From Symbiotaphrina buchneri (lineage: Eukaryota; Ascomycota; Symbiotaphrinales; Symbiotaphrinaceae), in assembly GCA_001599915.1 (NCBI GenBank), contig BCIG01000001.1:310001-374000 (forward strand): a stretch of 64,000 nucleotides of DNA, read 5' to 3'. Below the pieces are notes generated by a model, which ran no database searches, was not told the origin of the DNA, and saw nothing but the letters and a program-made list of their open reading frames with translations. Positions 3,011 through 18,548 of this stretch are shown one piece after another; positions within the stretch are counted from its first letter, which is position 1, and each line of letters opens with the position of its first letter. Both the position numbers and the translations under genes were made by a program.

Positions 3011-3600
3011 TCTGGTAATATTTGATAAGATCTGATAAGATAAGTACTTAACAAACATCTTTAAACAAAACCTTAATTTTTTCTTAATAAATAATCAACC
3101 TTTTAAAACAATAAAACATTGTTATATAACAAACTTTATTATTAAATAATACCCTTTTTAAGAATTTGAAATTCAATTAGAAATATTTAAGACATAATTA
3201 TTTTCTAACTATAACCTTAACCTATAGTAACTACTAACTAGAAACTCAAGGATAATAACAAGTTAAAAGTGTTAAAAGACTTAAAGTAATAACTTAGTTA
3301 GAATTCAAGAAGATATAAAACACAATTATATTTTAACTGATCAGTTTCTTTCTACCTAATTTACCTTGTATTTATAAACATTAACAATTGGTACAACATA
3401 TTATACAAGTTAATACATACTAATATATATTAATATATATTAATACAAAGTAATACAAACTAATACATATTACCTTGTAAACTAAACCTAATTAAATATA
3501 ATATGTTATTATAAATAACCAAACAGAACTTGAGTTTTAGCTTAAAAGTTCTATATCTCTTTTAAAAACAGTAATTTTAACTAGAAGAACTTATGATATT
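3010..3600 (-). repeat. Heavily mutated copy of the local repeat
   Basis: This stretch lines up by eye with 5160-5700 in the same direction. Both share the order: TAAATAATCAAC, a GTTATATA block, AATACCCTTTT, GAATTCAAGAA, TTACCTTGTATTTATAA, and a row of AATACA-type units. Where 5160-5700 has C or G, this copy often has T or A (for example GAATTCAAGAAAATACGAAA against GAATTCAAGAAGATATAAAA). That bias is the direct sign of RIP in this window. Confidence 0.7.
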
Positions 3601-3927
3601 ATCTGATTACTTGGTAAAAAACAGGCTTGTCATTGGCAGGCTTGTTGTTGGTATGGTATATACCACCAAATACAAATATACTACACTGGTGTTAAATGTG
3701 GTCTGGTATCAAATTTTGGTACCAGTGGTACTTAGTCATGATACCATATTCTACCGGTGCTATATGTGGTATAATACCAAATCACCAGCTCAAAAAGATA
3801 AGATAAGATATTTTTTTCCTTTTGAATTACCATTTTTGAAAGGGGTATAGAACTAGAGCTTGGTAAGTTCCATAACTATATTTATAGTAACCAGCTTTAC
3901 CTAATTAGGTTTAATATACAAGGTAGC

Positions 3928-4390
3928 TTGTATTAGTGTGTATTAGTGTGTATTAGTGTGTATTAGTGTGTATTAGTGTGTATTAGTGTGTATTAGTGTG
4001 TATTAGTGTGTATTAGTNNNNNNNNNNNNNNNNNNNNNNNNNNNNNNNNNNNNNNNNNNNNNNNNNNNNNNNNNNNNNNNNNNNNNNNNNNNNNNNNNNN
4101 NNNNNNNNNNNNNNNNNNNNNNNNNNNNNNNNNNNNNNNNNNNNNNNNNNNNNNNNNNNNNNNNNNNNNNNNNNNNNNNNNNNNNNNNNNNNNNNNNNNN
4201 NNNNNNNNNNNNNNNNNNNNNNNNNNNNNNNNNNNNNTGTATTAGTGTGTATTAGTGTGTATTAGTGTGTATTAGTGTGTATTAGTGTGTATTAGTGTGT
4301 ATTAGTGTGCATTAGTGTGCATTAGTGTGTATTAGTGTGTATTTGTGTGCATAAGTGTGCATTAGTTTGTATTAGTGTGTTTCACTATTT
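3928..4390 (+). repeat. 10-bp minisatellite (TGTATTAGTG)n, interrupted by assembly gap
   Basis: At least eight exact head-to-tail units precede the gap and about fourteen follow it, decaying at the right end (variants with TGCATTAG and TTTGTATTAG). A diverged inverted version of the same array lies at about 5478-5575 and an AT-degraded one at about 3411-3475, so the array is an internal part of the repeat family. Confidence 0.9.
4018..4237. other. Assembly gap (220 N)
   Basis: A run of 220 N sits inside the 10-bp tandem array, so the true copy number is unknown. Any open frame across it is meaningless. Confidence 0.99.
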
Positions 4391-4749
4391 GTTAGTGTTT
4401 ATAAATACGAGGTAAGCTAGGCCCAAAGAGGCAGGTTGGTTGGAATACGATTGTATTTCGTATGATCTCATATTCTAAACAACCTGTAAGAAGTTCAGAC
4501 CTTGAGCTCTTTCAGCACCTGCAACATGTTGTTATTATGCTATTATATAGTTCCTGGCAGGCTTGTTGTTGGTATAGTATAGTATGGTATTTTGACATTT
4601 TAAACTTGCTTGTCAAGAAACTTGACTACATGTGGTAGTTCAGACCCATAGTACCAAATACCACTAGTTACGAATATGAATACTACCACCAAGTATTTAT
4701 TGTATATCATTTATACTGTTTACTAAGTACTTAGTAAGCAACTTTATGT

Positions 4750-5160: not shown

Positions 5161-6249
5161 ACTTTAAGCGAAACCAAATTTTATCTTGGTAAATAATCAA
5201 CATTTTAATATAATAAAAACATGGTTATATAGCAAATTCTTTGTTGAATAATACCCTTTTCAAAATTTCAAAATCCGATTAGGAATGGTTGAGATATCAT
5301 GATTTTCTAACTCCTAGATTCTACAGTGGCCAGGAACTGCAGGATAACAGCCAGTTGGAAGTGTAAAAAAGACTTGGGACAGCAGCTCGGTTAGAATTCA
5401 AGAAAATACGAAATACAATCGTATTCCAACTGACCTGCCTATTTGGGTTTAGCTTACCTTGTATTTATAAGCACTAACAAATAGTAAAACACACTAATAC
5501 AAACTAATGCACACTAATGCATACTAATGCATACTAATGCACATTAATACATACTAATACACACTAATACAAGTTACCATATACATTAAACCTGATTAGG
5601 TATAGCTGGTTACTATAAATATAGTCATGGAACTTACCAAGCTCTAGTTCTATACCCCTTCCAAAAATGGTAATTCAGAAGGAAAAAAATATCTTATCTT
5701 ATCTTTTTGATCTGGTGATTTGGTATTATACCACATTTAACACCGGTAGAAAATGGTATCATGACTAAGTACCACTGGTACCAAAATTTGATACCAGACC
5801 ACGTTTAACACCGGTGTGGTATATTCGTATTCGGTAGTATATACCATACCAACAAGAAGCCTGTTAATGTAGGACTTAGAAAAAGGGAAAATGTTGATAT
5901 CTCAACCATTCCTAATCGGATTTTAAATTTTCAAAAAAGGGTATTACTCAGCAAATAATTTGTTATATAACCATGTTTTTTTATATTATAATGTTGATTA
6001 TTCACCAAGATAAAATTAGGTTTCACTTAAAGTTGTTTATTAAACATTTACTAAATGTTTACTAAACAGTATAAATAATGTACAATGAATACTTGGTGGT
6101 AGTATTCATATTCATAACTAGTGGTATCTGGTCCTAGGGGTCTGAACTACCATATGTAGTCAAGTTTCTTGGTGGGCAAGCTTAAAAGGTCAAAATACCA
6201 TACTACACCATACCAACGGCGAGCCTGTGGTAGAATATGGTATCATGAC

Positions 6250-7143: not shown

Positions 7144-7550
7144 TGTGAGCCGCGCTCATTGGTGAACCAGCCAGTGGTACGTTGGGAAGCGCCCGGCGGA
7201 TAGCCGTCGGAGACTCGGGTATACGGCATCCTTATCTGCCTTGGCAGGTTCGTCTCAGCATGCTAGTGATCCTGGGGGTGTGCACTAGTTATATCTGAGG
7301 GTGTGGTCGTCGGACACCTGTCGGACAGCCAGCGGTCTGTCTGCGTATACCGGGTCTACGGCATTCCCACCCAGTGCAGGGACTCGAAGGAGTCCCGGTA
7401 TATAGTGCTGGCCAGATCTCATGTTTGGATAGCCAGCGATTAGTTTTGGAATCTACCGGACTGATAGCTACCCCCTCGCCGCCGCCTCGCCGTGTGTCCT
7501 CCACCAGATATTGTAGCAGCCTAAGAAGCCAGTCGCATATAGCCCTCACA
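7144..7550 (+). repeat. 5' LTR of Gypsy element
   Basis: The LTR is 407 bp, beginning TGTGAG and ending CTCACA (a 6-bp inverted end of the usual TG...CA kind). It appears identical by eye to the 3' copy along its full length. The preceding five bases are ATAAT. Confidence 0.97.
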
Positions 7551-10500
7551 ATTCTAATCGCTCTACCGTTCACGGGTGACTGTCCGCTTAGGCTACTACA
7601 GTTGTCTATTTCAGACTGAATTGCTGATACTATCAATTGTCAATATGGTTACCACTAGACGAAGCCAATCTCACTCTGGGGACGCTGAGGGACCCCTATC
7701 GCTTCCCGGGGGCACCGCTAGTGCTCCTACGCTTGAGCATACAGGCGACCGTGCCGGTTCCCCGGTGATTACCCCGGGCTCCCAGGTTGCGACCGTGGAC
7801 CCTGGTGACGCTGACCCCATTCACGAACAACTCCGGGAAGCACAACGAGAACATGCACGGCTGGTGGCCAGCATCAAGCTAGCGCACCTCCGACGTGAAA
7901 ACGACCAGTTGCAGCAAGGCCTCGACCTAGGGGCGGGCTCATCTGGTACGGCCCCTCGTGTGGTGCCTAACCCTGAGACCCCTGAGTGGGTAGCCGACCC
8001 AGCATCCTTGTTCCGTGCGGAAGCGGCTAGACGCGGTCGTGAGCCCAGCGAATACTGGGGAAGGGGCCTTTCGGAATATCATGATTTTGTCCTGGGCTGC
8101 AAGAATCAATTCCGTCTCAAGCCTAGTGTGTATCCTACCGATAGGGCAAAAGTCGATTATGCTGTCTCCTGGTTGCGAGGCAACCCAGCGGCCACCTGGG
8201 TACGTTACGAACGTGACCATGGCGAGGGTACCGCAACTTTCGCAGATTTTGAAGCTACCCTTAAGGCCTTGGTGCAGGACCCTATCAATTTGACAATGAC
8301 GTCGCACATGCGATATATGAACGCTCAGCAGGGGCCCACACAGTCTATCGCCAGCTTCGTCGCGTACCTGGAGAGCTGTGAGGAGGAGATGGTAGAGCGC
8401 TATACCGAGTCCCAACGTATGCAGCATCTCTTGGCCAAGATCCGCCCGGCTACACGTCGGCGTGTCACCAGTTCTCCTACTATACCAGAGACTTTCAACG
8501 GCTTGGTGGCTCAGGTCCAGAGAATCGAGGATAACGAATCCTTCGCGGAACGACCCCGATACTATGATCAGTACGCTCGAGCCACGCACGAGCATAATCA
8601 GGGCAACGTGCAGCCCTACAGCGGTCGTGGTCGATCATTTCGAAACAACAGGGGAGGCGCAAGAGGAGCGCCCGCGTCATTCAACGCGACCCCAGCGAAT
8701 TCGATCCCAGTTGGCACCACTCGACTTCAGCGGGCCAACTACCCCCAGCAAAACCGCCCTCCGGTCACCCCCGGGACACCCGTAGCTGCGTCTACGGACA
8801 CGTGTTACAAGTGTGGGGAGACCGGCCATTGGGCTAACCAGTGTCCCCAAGGACGAGGACAACGTCAACAGAACAGCTTTCGTGGACGTGGCTATACGCC
8901 TCGTCTCCGTCAGTTGGTCGTTAAGAGGAATGATGGACATCGAAATTTTGTTATCGATCTCCATCTGGAAACCCCCAATGGCACCAAGGTCGAACCAGCG
9001 TTGGTCGATACCGGGGCTGAAATCAGCTTCATCTCCCAGTCCTTTGCGAAGGAATGTGGTTGGAACCCGCACGCAGATCACAGTGATGCCGCCGTCTTGG
9101 CGAATGGTCATAGCATCCGTATCTATGGTATGACGCCCATAGAATTCAAGGCTACCGACGATAGTAGCCAGGCGAAGACCCATGTGCAGGATTTCGCATC
9201 CACGGACCTGGCCCATGGAAACATTATCCTGGGTATGCCGTGGTTACGAGCCTGTAGCCCCCTGATCAACTGGGGCCAGGGAACCTGGTACTACCCAACA
9301 TCCCCTGGATACAATGTTCAGGAGGAATCCCCACTCCGTTTTACCGATCAAATCAATGACCAGTCCCGTGTCTTCGCCCTGTACCTTAGCCAGGTAGTCA
9401 CCGGCGAAAAGACGTTAGATGGCAATCCGTTCCCGGAGGAATATAGAGAGTTTGCAGATGTATTCTCTGAGGATGCAGCCAGAGAGTTGCCAGCGCATAG
9501 CCGTCACGATCACGCCATTGTTCTAGAGGGAGGAGAACCCCCCTATGGGCCCATCTATAATCTGTCAGAAAGCGAGCTCAAGGTTCTAAGGGACTACCTC
9601 ACCGACGCCCTCCAGAAGGGATGGATCCAGCGATCCACCAGCCCAGCGGGCGCTCCTATCCTGTTCGTCCCGAAGAAAGATGGGAAATTACGACTATGCG
9701 TGGACTACCGAGGTCTTAACCGTGTGACCCGGAAAAACCGTTATCCCTTACCCCTTATTAGCGAGACGTTGGACCGACTAGTCGGAGCGAACTACTATTC
9801 AAAGCTGGACCTGCGCGATGCCTATCACCGGATTCGTATCCGGCCGGGCGACGAGTGGAAGACGGCGTTCCGCACACGATACGGCCATTTCGAATATACT
9901 GTCATGCCTTTTGGTCTAGCTAACGCACCAGCCACCTTCCAGGCCCATATCAACGAGATATTCGCGGATATGCTAGATATCTGCTGCGTGATCTATTTGG
10001 ACGACATCCTTATTTATTCCTCCAACTTAGAGGACCATCGCAAGCATGTCACCGAGGTCTTGCGGAGATTGCGCCAGGCCAAGCTATACGCCAAATTATC
10101 GAAGTGCCAATTCCACACCACGACTGTGGAGTTCCTAGGATTTGTTGTCACCCCTGATGGCATAAAGATGGAGGATAGCCGGGTCAGCTCCATAGCTGAC
10201 TGGCCTGAGCCTGCTTCCGTTCGAGACATACAGGTATTTATAGGCTTTGCTAACTTCTATAGGAGATTCATCAAGGGATTTTCGCAAAAGGCGGCTGCCT
10301 TAACTGAATATTTCAAAGGACCAAAAGAAAGAGATCCAACGCAACCTTTCCAACTAAGCGAAGGCGCCAAGCAGGCGTTTCGCCAGTTAAAAGAAGCGTT
10401 CATGCAACGGCCTATATTGGCCCATTTTGATCCTAGCCGACCAATTCGTCTAGAGACAGATGCGTCTGGATACGCTATCGCAGGTATTTTGAGCCAGCTT

Positions 10501-13015
10501 GTCGCTGACCCAGCGGAGCCTGGGGGTCAAGCTCACTGGAGGCCTATTGCCTATTGGTCAAGGAAAATGAGCCCACCAGAACGAAATTATGAGGTTCATG
10601 ATGCTGAACTACTAGCAATTGTCGCGTGTTTCAAGCAATGGAGACACTACCTTGAGGGAAGTCGTCTCCCTATAGAAGTTATTACTGATCACAATAACTT
10701 GAAGTACTTCATGACTACCAAGGCGTTAACCAGGCGCCAAGCCAGATGGGCTGAAAGACTGGCAGCATATGATTTCAATATTGTTTATCGCAAGGGTACA
10801 AACAACCCTGCAGACGGGCCGTCGCGCCGTGCTGATTATCTGCCTACCCCTCAGGAAGAGGAAGGGGAGATCATGTTGCCTACATTGCAACGCAAGCTAC
10901 AAGCTAGGGCGGCGACAGCCCAAACCCTGGAAAATGGGGGTCGGGGAACCGACCAGAGTGATGATTCAGGGGAACCGAACCGCGGGAACCCCCCTGACGC
11001 TCTTGAGAGTGCAGCCTGGAGATTATTCTCGGTGCACTGGTGTAGGGCAGACACTAGCGCCGTCGCAGCGCCGTCGTGGCATGACCCCCATGGTGTCGCT
11101 ACACAGGGAGACAGGCCAACCCCTGAACGCACGGGTGTTCTAGACCACCTTGTGCCCCGTCTGCTCGTAATCGAGTTGGCGGGTCCCGAAGATGCGTACG
11201 ATCGGCCTCGGACATCGTTCCTACAGCTTTTACGCGATCTTCAGCAGAGGGACGCCTTTGCAAAGGAGATCCGCAAGACTCTAGACAGCGACCCGACAGC
11301 CCGTACAAGTGGGCCAATACCACCAGATTGGCGCCAGGACGACACTGGACTTCTCCGGATTGGGGAAGCCGTGTACGTGCCCACCGACCCTGCTGTACGG
11401 AAGAGATCCTACAGAGGTGTCATGATGACGTTGCAGCAGGCCACTTTGGCGCTGAACGAACACTGGCGCTCCTCCGTCGGAAGTACTGGTGGCCGACAGT
11501 TGTGGAGGACGTCAAAGAATACGTTGATTGTTGTGACATATGCCAGCGCACAAAAGCGCGGAAGCATCGTCGCTACGGTGAGATGCAGGCTATGCCTATG
11601 CCGGACCGCCCCTGGAAAATCCTTACGATGGATTTCATAGTGGGACTGCCACCTAGCTGTGGGCGGGACCAGGCAATCGCCCAAGACAGTATCTTGGTCG
11701 TTGTTGATAAGTATACAAGGATGGTTAAATATATTCCATGCAAGAAAACAATTACTGCTGAAGCTCTCGCAGATCTATTTATCAAGCACGTGCTAAAAGA
11801 CTTCGGCTGCCCGTCGGATATCATATCCGATAGGGGATCAGTGTTTACGAGCAAGTTTTGGTCGACGATGTGCTTCTATTTAAAGGTAAAGCGACGGTTA
11901 TCGACGGCGTTCCACCCGCAGACCGACGGTCAGACGGAACGACAAAACCAGGTCATTGAACATTACCTACGGGTATATACGAATTACCACCAAGATGACT
12001 GGGTAGACTTACTTCCAATGGCCGAGTTTGCGTATAATAGCAGTGTCCACGCAGTCACAAAGCAGTCGCCCTTCTTTCTAATGTACGGCTATCAGCCAGA
12101 ACTGTACCTAGACGTCGAGGACGTCATCTATGGAAGAGAGGCGCCGGCGGCCACCGAACGTATCTTCAACATGAAGACGTCGAGGACCCGGGCCCTACAA
12201 CTATAGGAAAAGGCACGGGCCTACCAAGAGAAGTATTATAACCAAAATCACAAACCACAGAGCTTTGCAGTGGACGATAAGGTGTTATTGGACACACGAA
12301 ATATTAAGACGATCAGGCCGAGCAAGAAATTGGATCACCGTTTCGCCGGACCCTTCCGTATTATCGAAACCGTAGGATCACAGGCGTATCGCCTAGAGTT
12401 ACCGGCAAAATACAAAACAATCCACCCTGTCTTCCATGTATCCCTATTAGAACCGTATCGAACGTCGGATCGCTACTCCACCGAGAAACCAATCCCAGAC
12501 ATAATAGAAGGGGAAGAAGAATGGCAGGTAGAAGAAGTGTTGGGACATAGGACCAGGACGGGGAAAATCCAATACTTAATACGCTGGCAAGGCTTTCCGC
12601 CGTCGGAAGACTCGTGGGAACCCGTCGAACACCTAGCGAATGCGGAAGAGGCCATAGAGGCATACCGGGGAAAATCATCAGCAAATGCCAACAAACGTAA
12701 GGCACAGAACGGGGCTGCCTCTGGGCCCAGGCGGGGACATCGCCGTCGACGAAGCACGAAATAAAACCGAACTACAACTGGGGAACCATATCGAGTACCT
12801 AGGGGGGCGCCGACCGACCACTTGCGCAGCGCCATAGAGGCCAACCATACGACAAATGAGTTATTTATGCGGGTTACAAACAAACGTTGGGGAGCGGTCA
12901 AAGGAGCAGGAAAAAGAACCTCCATTCTCAAGCAAAAGAAGCCACTATCGACTAAGAACCTGACTATCTAAGGTCTCCCGCTGTACGCCGCCGGCACACC
13001 TACGTGTCGCCGGTC

Positions 13016-13962
13016 TTACGCTACTACAGGGCGAGGACCCTCAACTCCATCAGTCAAACCATCGCCGTTATCATTATCTCCATCTTCAAGATCCTCCTCC
13101 TGGCCATCCTCTTCAGACTCAGATGCCTCCGGCTCACCATCGTCATCACCCCCGCAGGTCTCATCATCTTCCTCGTCGGAGCTGACGGGAGCATCGTCAT
13201 CAGACAGCATACCCGTATCGAAATTGTTCTACCGCTGGTTAGTAGCTGCAGAAACGAAGCATACATCTAGGAAGACATACCTTCTCCAGCCAAGCAGCAA
13301 CAAAAACCTTTGTCGTGAGAGCCAAGCTGATCATCGACTGCTGATATCGCTGCTCTAGCGGTACGTTGGCTTGACGTAAAGCCGCGTCTGTCTTGACAGC
13401 AAAGGCCTTTGCAGACTTCTCAAGAGCACGAGCAGCCTTCTTCGCCCTAGAACGAGTTTGTTTGCCTATCTTCTTCGTAGTGTCGGCGACTTCAAGATAA
13501 CTATCGCGACTCTCCAAGAGGCGGTCGAAGTAATTCGAAACCTTCAACGGGATCTGCGACTCGTCAGCGGGAGTCCAGCAAGCTGTAAGGGATACGAACC
13601 TCGAGACACTTCTTGTTCATTTTGAAGCAGCGAGTACACGCTGCACTTCCAGACTTCGGGTTCCAGCAGCAGCGGTTTTCCGGGTCCTTACCCAGCCACT
13701 TCGCGCAACGGACGCATATCTTCTCCGAGAGCTCTTTCTTCGTGAGCAGAGAGGAAGCCGGCTCCTTTCGTGCGGGCGTCAGGCGGTTACGCGGAGCAGA
13801 CATAGCGATCTCAGAGTACAAGACACGTAATTGCGGTGGCAGATCTAACAAGAAGAAAGGTGATCGAGTAGCATGCAGAAAGAAGGCTTGAAGGTTGTTC
13901 GTGGAAGAAGAAGAAGGAGGAGTAGCAGAAGTTGGGCGAGCCATGTTGGCAAAGCCGGCCAT
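13016..13962 (-). CDS. Antisense Cys-rich, acidic-tailed protein carried inside the Gypsy element
   Basis: On the strand opposite to gag-pol, between the chromodomain and the 3' LTR, a three-exon gene can be read. It has two short introns: about 46 bp near 13.58 kb (GTTCGT...CGCAG) and about 52 bp near 13.25 kb (GTATGT...GGTAG, with a TACTAAC branch site). All joins are in phase and give about 282 residues. A Ser/Thr/Pro-rich start leads to a Cys cluster near residues 88-124 with spacing CX2C-X11-CC-X9-CX2C-X6-C, a probable zinc-binding fold. A basic, Ala/Lys-rich helical region follows (about 122-212), then a strongly acidic Asp/Glu tail. I do not recognise a named family, although uncharacterised fungal proteins with similar Cys spacing exist. 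A DNA- or chromatin-binding role is inference. Met at 13944 is another possible start. Confidence 0.6.
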
Positions 13963-14368
13963 AAGGGCAACAATAGGAGGTGAATGGAAGACGTTCTCTT
14001 TGTTGCCCAAGGGTCTTGATAGACGTCGGGCCTCACAGCGGTTACCTAGGGTATCGTTGGCGATGACCTTGGTAGGTGAAAAAGAACAAAGGGAACCATA
14101 CCCAAGGCTACTTATAGCCGCAAAAAGGTTGCTGTCACACCAGCTGGATGTGGAAGACAAGCAAGGATGCCGTCGGGCTTGAGGTGAGCGAGGATAAGGT
14201 GAAGTAGGAAGCAAGTGAGGTGAGAAGTGAGGTGAGGTGAAGCTGTACAATGTGTGCATCACCAAGGCTTGGCCAGGTGATCGCAAGCGTCCCGCTCTCA
14301 CATGACTCCTGCTGCCACATCAACTTACTGCTGGCCTTGGGGACCAAGGCCATGGAAGGGGGAGTAAT

Positions 14369-14775
14369 TGTGAGCCGCGCTCATTGGTGAACCAGCCAGT
14401 GGTACGTTGGGAAGCGCCCGGCGGATAGCCGTCGGAGACTCGGGTATACGGCATCCTTATCTGCCTTGGCAGGTTCGTCTCAGCATGCTAGTGATCCTGG
14501 GGGTGTGCACTAGTTATATCTGAGGGTGTGGTCGTCGGACACCTGTCGGACAGCCAGCGGTCTGTCTGCGTATACCGGGTCTACGGCATTCCCACCCAGT
14601 GCAGGGACTCGAAGGAGTCCCGGTATATAGTGCTGGCCAGATCTCATGTTTGGATAGCCAGCGATTAGTTTTGGAATCTACCGGACTGATAGCTACCCCC
14701 TCGCCGCCGCCTCGCCGTGTGTCCTCCACCAGATATTGTAGCAGCCTAAGAAGCCAGTCGCATATAGCCCTCACA
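14369..14775 (+). repeat. 3' LTR of Gypsy element
   Basis: The LTR is 407 bp with the same ends as the 5' copy and is followed by ATAAT, the target duplication. It is preceded by a purine-rich tract (GGAAGGGGGAG) suited to priming plus-strand synthesis. Confidence 0.97.
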
Positions 14776-15068: not shown

Positions 15069-18000
15069 CTAACGCTTCTTTGATCCTTTCCCACCTCGCG
15101 GCTTCCCCTTGGCTTGACCACTTCTTGCAGTCCCTCCTGATGCTCCACCTGACATCATGACCCTAACCTTGCCTACTGGGATGGTATTGATTACTTCAGT
15201 GTCTTTCCACGCTTTGATCAGTTCCATCTCCCGAGGCCATATCTTCTCCTTATCTTCGCTTTTTTCGTCAACATTTTTCCTTTCCGAACCGGCACTAATC
15301 CATCTCGCCAAAATTTCTTTGACAGCCTTGCCTTTTTTCTGGCTCCCAGGCTGCAATTTCACCTTGTACTTATACTTGCACATGGCGCTCCACGGGGCAC
15401 AAATTGGAATGGCCTCCAATATCTCATCGCCTGGCAATGGTGCGCCGACGAGGCTGTCCAGTAGTGTCATCGAATGCTGCTCTTCCTCGTCTAATATCTC
15501 GATGTTTTCTTCCCGCATCAACCGACGAACCTCTTCATGTTCCTTAGCAGCCATTGCGGCCTTGTCATGTTGTGCTTTTCGTCGTTGTCTCTGAAAATCC
15601 TTTTCTTCTTCCCTTGCCTTCTTCGCCTTTGCCTCCTCTTCGGCTTTCTCCTTCGCGGCTTGAGAACCGAGCAACTTCATGGCAATCGCTCTATCTTCCG
15701 CATCTTGATCTGCATACTTGCCGGCCAGCCTTTTCTTCTTGCCACTTTTGCCGCGCACCTGTGGTGTTGCCGATCCATTTCTGCTCGATTCATTTTGATG
15801 TTTTGGCCGAGACCCTTCTTCACCCGGTGTTCCAGGCTCAGATGCGACACTGATGCCTTTCCGCAGCAGTCTCCGCTCCCTTGCCGATAGGTGGCGAATA
15901 CTACTGTCGGGCTGCGAGCCCTTCTCCCCACTCTCCCTTTCCAGTCCATCAGGATCCTGCCCCTGCCCTTCTTCCCAGTTATGGTCCTCGTCTCCTCGCT
16001 CTTCTGAAGGGCTTTCACTCTCCTGACCCACCACACTCTCTGTTTCGGCATGGGGATCGGTCTGCAGAGGATTGGGACGCGAGGTTCCTACCCCTTGACC
16101 TTCGTCTGAATCTCCTTCTAACTCTCCCTCTGACTTGGCATCCTCGGCGGTCTCACTTGAAATTTCCGAATGGTTTGTTTCATCTTGCACGTCACCATCA
16201 TGTAGCGAGAGAACTTCCATCCGCTCCTGCTCATCGACCGTCTTGTCTGCTCTCTCCGCCGAAGGTTCCTCCACTCGAAGTCTGTGTTTGACATGTCGAG
16301 CTTTACTCTCTTCAGTAATCTGAAACATGACCCCGAAACCCAGTAATAGCTGAGAAGGGGGCAGAAAATTCTTCTTTCCACGGATCATGAATGAACCGGT
16401 TGATAAGTATTCACCAGTGGGTTCAGTTTTGGACACCTGATCAGAGGTTACCCACCAAGCGGACATGACGGCTTTTGAATCCCAAGCGCTCGATGTGGCC
16501 ACAGAATAATTCCCTGCCTGCGATAAAGTAGAAGGGGGAATAGGAGCGTCTGGTGTAGAAGGAACATTCTTAATGATGACCGATGCAGCTCCTTGAATGT
16601 CTGCATGGACGTAAATGTCGCCCTTTTTCAGATACCTTCTATAGAGTATTTCATTCTGTTGAGCGTCTTTGCCCCTATAACATGGTGAGTGCTGTGTGGG
16701 TACAGTCAAAGGTACTAACTTACCCTAAAACAAGGTAACCGTCAGAAGAAATGAAGTACAGAAACTTTTCGAAGCATAATTGCTTTCGAACGGGTCGTAA
16801 TACTGCCTTCTCTGACTTCAGGCCTTTTTGTAGGTCATTCTGGATCTTTCTTTCCTGGGCCTTCAGAGCCTTCGATGACGACTGTACAGTTCTTTCCTCT
16901 TTAGAAGCTGCGGTCTTCTTCTGCTCGTAATATTGCCTAGCATTAGCCCACGGAGATAGACCTAGATCTATATCGATGGCTAGTCGTCTGTCAGCTACCG
17001 TTGCTGAAGGGTTAGAGGGTGCTTCATCATCTGAGGGCTCTTCATCTGTCTCATCGCCCTCAAGAAGGCCATGACTCTCATCTTCGAAATCTTCTTCGCC
17101 TAGTAGTAAGGTCACGGTGTTTTCTTGAAGCTTTAATGGTAACTTGATGATTTCAGCAACAGGGTTATGCCTCCTCTGTTCTGACTCGATAAGCTTTCCA
17201 ATGTCAACCCAGTCCATTCCCGGCCCAATCAGACCATTGACAGCTGCTATTGCCTCTTCGACCCATTGTAAGTTGGCTTCAATGGCCCCGGCTTTTCGGA
17301 CATTTAATTGTTGTACAGCTTGTAAACCTCCGAGCCGACGCTCATGATCTGCTCGAGCTGCTTCTAGCTTCCGCTTCGCATTCTCCTCCCTATCTTGCAA
17401 CTTAGACTGAAGCTTCTGCCCTTCAATAGACGAGTAGAACTCGTCCACTGTTTTATTGAAGCTCTCGAATTCCAGAATTGTCGATGTAGGATCATCTTCG
17501 AACTGTCTCGCCTTGAAAGGGTGAAAATCTTCATATAGTAGCTCTCCAGATGACGGCGGCCCATTCCTTCCAGCGGAACCTTCTGGATCTGGGTTTGGAC
17601 CAAGTTTTGGCCTAGCAGGTTTTGCGATTATGTAGCCCTTCGAGACAGCTGAACCAGTTATGCCTTGTACCACGACTTCCGCTTCTTTCAAGACATCCAT
17701 CAATCCATGGAATAGCTCTTCTTTGCCAAGCACTTCCTCTGGTTTCAATGTCGGGTCATAACCTCTCACCTTGAAAGCATGCTCAAGCAACACTGGAGGG
17801 TATTCCGTCAACGTATTGCTGATAGACCTTTTTAAGTCATCATTTGAGGTCTTCTTGGACTTCTTCCCGTGGCTGAGTGATTGGGTCGCTTGCCGCTTGT
17901 CAATCGCATTTTGAAGTGCGTTTCTGACGCGCTCCTCGCTCAAAGGAGGTACACCATTGTAATTCTGACGGTGATCGAGCTTGTAGGTAAAGCCCGGCCG

Positions 18001-18548
18001 AAGATGTTCCTCTTCTGGGCCTTCAAAAACGCTCCTGAACAGACTCAACACCTTCAAATTGGCGTCGGTAAGCACGATATTGCCTGCGGCAAAGAACTCC
18101 AGGAACAATCGATATTGTCCATCACTGAATGTCAGCTCTATGACCCGATCGGTCCCCACTTGTGAAACGGCTGTCACCCGTCTTGTCCGCAGAAATTTCC
18201 GTAGCCGTGCAACAAAAGCCGATGGAGCTGTGGCTGTGGTCCTTGCGAAGTCAGTCAGATGGCATCTGAAACCTGTATCCACTACCAGTTGTCGCCGATT
18301 GTCCGGTCTCGCGAATTTCAAGAGGAATATGCGCTAGTTTTAAATCATCATCAACAAGACCGCCTAATGCGGGACATGGTCGGGATGCTCACTGAGGAGA
18401 GGTCATAGACATTAGCCAGGCGTAGGCTCGTCAGACTGCTTGAAAGCTCATGCGCGATGACCTGTGGGGCATTCGTAAATTGCGGTCATGGCAACAAAGG
18501 TATTCTCAAGCGTACCTTTACATCAAGTGAAGAGAATCTCTGCTTCAT
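15069..18548 (-). CDS. RQC2: Ribosome quality control complex subunit 2 (NEMF/Tae2 family)
   Basis: Four exons: 18516-18548, 18393-18461, 16724-18333 and 15069-16674 (introns of 54, 59 and 49 bp), giving 1105 residues, the usual size. The family binds 60S subunits carrying stalled nascent chains, helps Ltn1 ubiquitinate them and directs CAT-tailing in the cytosol. The N-terminal NFACT-N domain begins MKQRFSSLDVKV, with Asp9 and the Asp-Arg pair at residues 96-97 (QVGTDRVIEL); the matching residues in yeast are needed for CAT-tailing. A coiled-coil middle follows, then the NFACT-R domain (GKDAQQNEILYRRYLKKGDI, HADIQGAASVIIKN), a long acidic and basic low-complexity linker, and an NFACT-C domain (ICAPWSAMCKYKYKVKLQPG). 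The stop lies 294 bp from the 3' LTR of the Gypsy element. The first exon is only 33 nt but matches the family start. Confidence 0.95.

Follow-up and report, generated by a model that had tools for sequence, protein, structure and literature searches.

A spliced gene lying antisense within a retrotransposon raises the question of whom it serves: the element that carries it or the host from which it might have been taken. This question is posed by a locus in a 64,000-nucleotide stretch of the Symbiotaphrina buchneri genome, referred to here as the window, where a three-exon gene for a cysteine-rich protein had been predicted on the minus strand of a Gypsy element, and where both capture from the host and long service to the element as an accessory gene had been put forward as explanations. 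The second explanation is favored: six copies of the gene were found, with shared intron positions and signs of coding constraint, and five of the six lie next to remains of Gypsy elements or LTRs. The probability that this is a conserved accessory protein gene of a chromodomain Ty3/Gypsy lineage is put at roughly 0.93.

The element in the window is an LTR element of 7.6 kb (7144-14775). Its 407-bp LTRs, at 7144-7550 (TGTGAG...CTCACA) and 14369-14775 on the plus strand, are identical and fall within an exact 413-bp repeat, and ATAAT, a 5-bp target duplication, is present on each side of the element. The gag-pol frame, running from stop to stop at 7558-11640 (plus strand), matches the Pfam families zf-CCHC, gag-asp_proteas, RVT_1 and RT_RNaseH, and the integrase part of pol continues in another plus-strand frame at 11127-12206, also given from stop to stop (Integrase_H2C2 and rve), with an in-frame stop at its end. 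The integrase end, at 12207-12764 (plus strand), contains an SH3-like domain (SH3_Tf2-1, 1.5e-23) and a chromodomain (Chromo, 2.2e-15). Pfam thereby recognizes a zinc knuckle, protease, reverse transcriptase, RNase H, integrase and chromodomain, and the order of reverse transcriptase and RNase H before integrase, the chromodomain at the integrase end, the LTRs and the target duplication identify a young chromodomain Ty3/Gypsy element. In this copy pol is no longer intact, since its frame changes near 11.4 kb and the in-frame stop precedes the chromodomain part. The DNA to the left of the element is AT-rich, with a GC content of 0.20-0.34 in the 2-7 kb region and about 0.5 in the rest of the first 24 kb. 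This AT-rich stretch contains an array of a 10-bp unit (TGTATTAGTG) together with a run of N at 3884-4426, and related repeats are also found at 3378-3482 and 5452-5586. Directly behind the element, two stop-to-stop frames on the minus strand (15069-18333) belong to an NFACT-type (Tae2/NEMF) gene.

The antisense gene was found where it had been predicted, on the minus strand between the chromodomain, which extends to 12764 on the plus strand, and the 3' LTR, which begins at 14369. Its three exons (13962-13600, 13553-13281 and 13228-13016) join in phase to encode 282 amino acids followed by a stop when read from 13962, and are separated by introns of 46 nt (13554-13599) and 52 nt (13229-13280), the second with a TACTAAC branch site. 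The gene is real, as this arrangement recurs at five other places in the genome. A scan of 23,383,419 bases in 82 contigs with exon-1 and exon-2 protein queries matched the same six places with each query, namely the window, C26, two places at C12 (C12A and C12B), C7 and C28, and a query made with one C12 relic gave 11 matches, all inside these six places. Because the searches score the best candidates only, the count should be read as at least six copies.

The C26 copy belongs to a full element that is 95% identical to that of the window and is flanked by a separate 5-bp duplication, CTTGC, recognized by eye. Between the two elements there are 386 substitutions and four indels, and since 369 of these substitutions are C-to-T or G-to-A in the direction from the window to C26, they record decay rather than selection. 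Changes were found at 230 of 1022 CpG sites (22.5%) and at 86 of 957 CpA sites (9.0%), and the substitution pattern is the mark of RIP-like decay. Together with the short introns, the TACTAAC branch site and the type of element, such decay points to a filamentous fungus. Neurospora RIP prefers CpA, unlike the decay of C26, which favors CpG. The antisense gene of C26 is open through all exons, with Tyr in place of Cys66.

The other copies, C12A, C12B, C7 and C28, are diverged and decayed relics of the gene. Their proteins are 44% (C12A), 43% (C12B) and 41% (C7, by exons 1 and 2 only) identical to that of the window, with C28 left out of this comparison on account of indels in exon 2, and the GC content of the aligned gene region ranges from 0.53 (window) and 0.48 (C26) through 0.41 (C12A) and 0.45 (C12B) to 0.14 (C7) and 0.17 (C28). 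Despite this divergence, a DNA alignment placed both introns at the same positions in all six copies. The intron 1 donor is GT in five copies and GC in C12A, and its acceptor AG is present in five copies and lost in C28; the intron 2 acceptor AG is present in all six, the donor GT is lost in C12A and C7, and the branch site reads TACTAAC in the window, C26, C12A and C7, CATTAAC in C12B and AATTAAC in C28. These shared positions fit the argument, made originally, that introns on the antisense strand survive retrotransposition: the gene would travel in the sense genomic RNA, in which its introns would stay unspliced. Expression may start from an antisense promoter of the gene's own near the 3' LTR, for which a TATA-like TATAAGT at 14110-14116 (minus strand, by eye), about 300 bp upstream of Met54, is a candidate; C12A has a stretch resembling this TATA-like site (GATATAATTAGCCTTGGTGATGG) at about the same distance.

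While the exon structure of the original prediction (13016-13962) stands, its translation start at 13962 was set aside, and the most likely start is Met54 at 13803, giving a protein of 229 amino acids, because the 53 residues before Met54 show little coding sign and because Met54, unlike the first ATG, has a counterpart in the relics. Of the other copies, only C26 retains the first ATG, which is missing from all four relics; the codon aligned with Met54 is ATG in C26 and C12B and ATA in C12A, C7 and C28. Over the 159 bases before Met54 (13962-13804), the codon pattern is flat in seven of ten copy pairs (p 0.40 to 0.89). The remaining three pairs reach p=0.01, with counts at codon positions 1/2/3 of 1/0/6 for window-C7, an excess at position 3, and of 17/3/14 for window-C28 and 16/3/14 for C7-C28, both with few changes at position 2. 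All three involve C7 or C28, and they leave some room, on this comparison of copies, for the longer form of 282 amino acids. The segment at 13804-13962 (minus strand) is more likely 5' untranslated sequence than an extra N-terminus, and exon 1, as defined by the copy alignment and codon pattern, would then run from 13803 to 13600 and encode the Cys-rich domain.

The cysteines of this domain occupy residues 30, 33, 45, 46, 56, 59 and 66 in Met54 numbering, and the window protein has the predicted pattern CX2C-X11-CC-X9-CX2C-X6-C. The second Cys of the CC pair is not conserved, as Cys46 is replaced by Ser in C12A and by Thr in C12B, and the conserved pattern is therefore C-X2-C-X11-C-X10-C-X2-C-X6-C. 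At codons 30, 33, 45, 56, 59 and 66, which specify the six core Cys, the four relics have 10 Cys codons, 13 TAY and one TGA; in 23 of 24 cells, therefore, Cys is either retained or a single G-to-A step of the RIP type away. By comparison, C-to-T or G-to-A steps explain 452 of 599 cells for the other residues of exons 1 and 2 (Fisher p=0.024 versus Cys). Constraint on the Cys positions, which had been named as a test of the prediction, is thus present, with modest statistical weight, because Pro (28/28) and Val (27/28) are kept equally well by the same count, in which Trp scores 12/12.

The basic middle and acidic tail that had been described for the protein were also borne out. The Cys cluster has a net charge of +7, the middle, encoded by exon 2 (13281-13553, minus strand), one of +8, and the last 70 residues, in the acidic tail encoded with the stop by exon 3 (13016-13228, minus strand), one of -28. 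Single-sequence models of low confidence predict one helix per CX2C motif and a pair of long ones in exon 2 (pLDDT 63 and 72, the latter for the basic middle; pTM 0.38). Searches for relatives gave little. In Pfam, the 282-residue form matched no family at E values up to 10, a search in which HMMER filters drop most matches above 0.1, and the first 167 residues of the 229-residue form matched TRIQK only (0.15); a PDB profile search gave four matches (E 3.8 to 9.1), every one at the acidic tail. With exons 1 and 2 as the query, none of 19 pattern matches in viral_contigs and none of 139 in genome_contigs was confirmed, nor was either of two matches of the gag-pol frame in viral_contigs, these being collections of viruses and prokaryotes that are silent on other fungi.

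Fungal zinc-cluster activators present a Cys cluster, a helical basic middle and an acidic tail in that order, and the PF00172 (Zn2Cys6) pattern is CX2CX6CX5-16CX2CX6-8C. The antisense protein resembles such Gal4-type factors in having a Cys cluster that ends in CX2CX6C, then predicted helices and then an acidic region, and differs from them in the first half of the cluster, CX2CX11C rather than CX2CX6C, in the lack of a Pfam match and in its very small size. Membership in PF00172 was rejected, as the spacing CX2CX11CX10CX2CX6C fails the pattern and a Pfam match is absent. A second point of comparison is HBZ of HTLV-1, the product of a spliced antisense gene on the 3' LTR side of an animal retrovirus and a nuclear regulator of the bZIP type. 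The window gene shares the splicing, the antisense orientation and the place beside the 3' LTR; the two lack any sequence relation, and the likeness is one of analogy only.

On this basis, the Cys cluster may bind zinc and touch DNA or chromatin, the helical middle encoded by exon 2 may form dimers, and the acidic tail may recruit transcription or chromatin factors, in which case the product would be a small protein that acts in the nucleus to regulate expression or chromatin state of the element itself, resembling a fungal zinc-cluster activator or HBZ in manner of action though not in family membership. Such a role is a tentative assignment, held at somewhat less than an even chance, and the explanation taken as a whole, in which an accessory gene of the element encodes a nuclear regulator, comes only a little short of even. 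Against the regulator reading stand the spacing that departs from Zn2Cys6, the absence of a Pfam family, the weakness of the models and a count of CGG pairs that was chosen afterwards. In the LTR, 18 direct-repeat CGG pairs were counted versus a mean of 6.7 in shuffled sequence, a number reached by three of 500 shuffles, in a test weakened by its being one of four counts in three regions chosen after the fact and by a GCC run that makes part of the excess. Everted pairs in the LTR numbered 7 versus 3.4 (36 of 500 shuffles), inverted pairs there showed no excess (4 versus 3.4), and neither did CGG pairs upstream of the antisense gene (1 versus 1.8). The CGG pairs of the LTR are a lead only.

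Other accessory tasks follow close behind the nuclear regulator, which is the most likely role, and are somewhat less probable than it. The product could be a zinc- and lysine-rich nucleic-acid chaperone, a factor for nuclear import of the pre-integration complex, or a helper that acts with the chromodomain in the choice of integration site. A basic Cys domain followed by a basic helical middle would suit these tasks, and the position of the element at the edge of AT-rich DNA is what targeting to decayed DNA could give. Furthermore, the product of one plant antisense ORF, gene23 of Grande, is nuclear in the account given in PMC7264820. However, gag already has a zinc knuckle and integrase already has a chromodomain, and a long acidic tail would be unusual in a chaperone.

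Whether the gene instead belongs to the host, captured by the element and either still serving the host or useless to the element, can be judged from what surrounds its copies. In the window, C26 and C7, pol and chromodomain lie on the expected strand directly before the antisense gene, C7 having reverse transcriptase, integrase and chromodomain in that place. In C12A a 34-residue chromodomain piece precedes the gene, and in C28 a pol reaching as far as the end of integrase lies on the expected strand, roughly 7.5 kb from the gene, with a run of 320 N and, in opposite orientation, parts of another element in between. LTR pieces were found on the gene's 5' side in C28 (59 nt) and C12A (49 nt). 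A Gypsy part beside the gene was looked for and not found only in C12B, which lies near a contig end. The two C12 copies, 64% alike over 590 nt, face each other head to head across a gap of about 1.7 kb near the contig end (L014, C12:745500-755137). The presence of introns, the lack of a known Pfam family and the C12B copy without recognizable Gypsy parts would suit capture from the host. Nevertheless, Gypsy or LTR remains accompany the other five of the six copies, protein identities of 41-44% with introns at the same places point to long residence in the element, and among the copies found none is clearly away from Gypsy remains, with C12B at a contig end. Capture of a host gene is thus improbable, and an accessory gene resident in the element is the reading carried forward.

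The distribution of the gene among related insertions was assessed by a search with the LTR, which gave seven matches representing five insertions: the two full elements and three solo LTRs, at G000:C11:473328-473733, C2:130304-130706 and C24:384422-384853, with identities of 100%, 99% and 94% to the window LTR and a 5-bp duplication each (by eye). Two of the three solo LTRs have diverged less than have the two LTRs of the full C26 copy (97 and 95%). The antisense gene is present in both full-length elements found of this LTR family, and in the four diverged relics. Among 13 reverse transcriptase matches listed in the genome, which do not include the pol of C7 and C28, only the two full elements are near an antisense gene, which suggests that the other elements of the genome lack it.

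That selection acted on the protein follows from the pattern of substitution. For the ten pairs of window, C12A, C12B, C7 and C28, transversions at each codon position (1/2/3) were tallied along the spliced frame that begins at 13803 and runs to the stop, because RIP-type decay makes transitions unsafe; C26, with 9 transversions over the whole element, was excluded. The counts were 30/27/77 for window-C12A, 31/32/71 for window-C12B, 33/27/63 for window-C28, 20/20/65 for C12A-C12B, 27/21/70 for C12A-C7, 30/30/68 for C12A-C28, 27/26/64 for C12B-C7, 27/28/77 for C12B-C28 and 24/21/54 for C7-C28, while window-C7 gave too few to judge (4/4/8, p=0.37, n=16). The excess at third positions in nine of ten pairs (p 1e-4 to 4e-9, values that express the strength of the pattern rather than ten independent tests, because the same copies enter several pairs and exon 2 of C28 contains indels) demonstrates selection on the protein. 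It has been proposed, as recounted in PMC7264820, that silencing is fed by antisense RNAs of LTR retrotransposons, and the antisense transcript might accordingly be what matters here, through double-stranded RNA or silencing control, with the reading frame incidental. This alternative is slightly more improbable still than capture from the host: an incidental frame is refuted by the surplus of transversions at third positions when the spliced frame is read, and the codons for Cys and Trp likewise show protein selection, although an RNA role in addition to that of the protein is unaffected by these observations. Chance reading frames with chance splice signals, or a misread sense-strand gene, are very improbable, as the gene plan recurs in diverged copies and as the wobble-sharing frame of the sense strand, though uninterrupted across exons 1 and 3 (67 and 70 codons), contains four stops within the 90 codons facing exon 2, where the excess is equally strong (14/13/36 and 6/5/23 in two pairs).

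The accessory gene of the window, at 13016-13803 on the minus strand with pol extending to 12764 on the plus strand and the 3' LTR beginning at 14369, has the position and strand that define an antisense additional ORF (aORF-3R) of LTR retrotransposons, a class to which its conservation and its presence in both full-length elements also conform, and such an arrangement is not new in kind. An antisense gene, brtn, was described in Boty-like elements of Botrytis cinerea by Zhao et al. 2011 (Virology 417:248), as told in PMC8365987, PMC7264820, PMC5987419 and PMC4227169, and the account in PMC7264820 places it between pol and the 3' LTR, antisense, in both Botrytis and Sclerotinia sclerotiorum. 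Like brtn, the window gene is an additional antisense gene at this site in an element whose Gypsy gag-pol ends in a chromodomain, and the domains given for Boty-like elements in PMC4227169 (zinc knuckle, protease, reverse transcriptase, integrase and chromodomain) are all present in the window element. The likeness concerns place, strand and element domains as these sources report them. Searches of an open-access library turned up no fungal case other than brtn, though others may have been published. In plants, antisense ORFs are known from the Gypsy elements Grande (gene23), RIRE2, Retand and PvRetro13, which, in the summary of PMC7264820, resemble the window gene in position, orientation, presence in most copies and lack of an assigned function; they reside in plant hosts and in other elements and are likened to it by position. 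The function of antisense extra ORFs of LTR elements, brtn included, is called unknown in the same source.

A conserved antisense accessory gene of this kind invites a broader view of the lineage. A fungal Ty3/Gypsy lineage may long have carried its own antisense-encoded transcription regulator, built of a Cys cluster, a dimer helix and an acidic tail and acting on the LTR, with brtn of Botrytis and its kin perhaps of the same stock, though this extension is unlikely as it stands. If true, the antisense LTR regulator would be a functional counterpart of the HBZ- or Tat-like regulators of retroviruses. A single genome offers introns at the same places, a signal of selection on codons, a defined Cys motif and an undecayed young copy along with decayed relics, and the function of the protein is therefore testable, as an activator of the LTR, an antagonist of silencing or a helper in integration.
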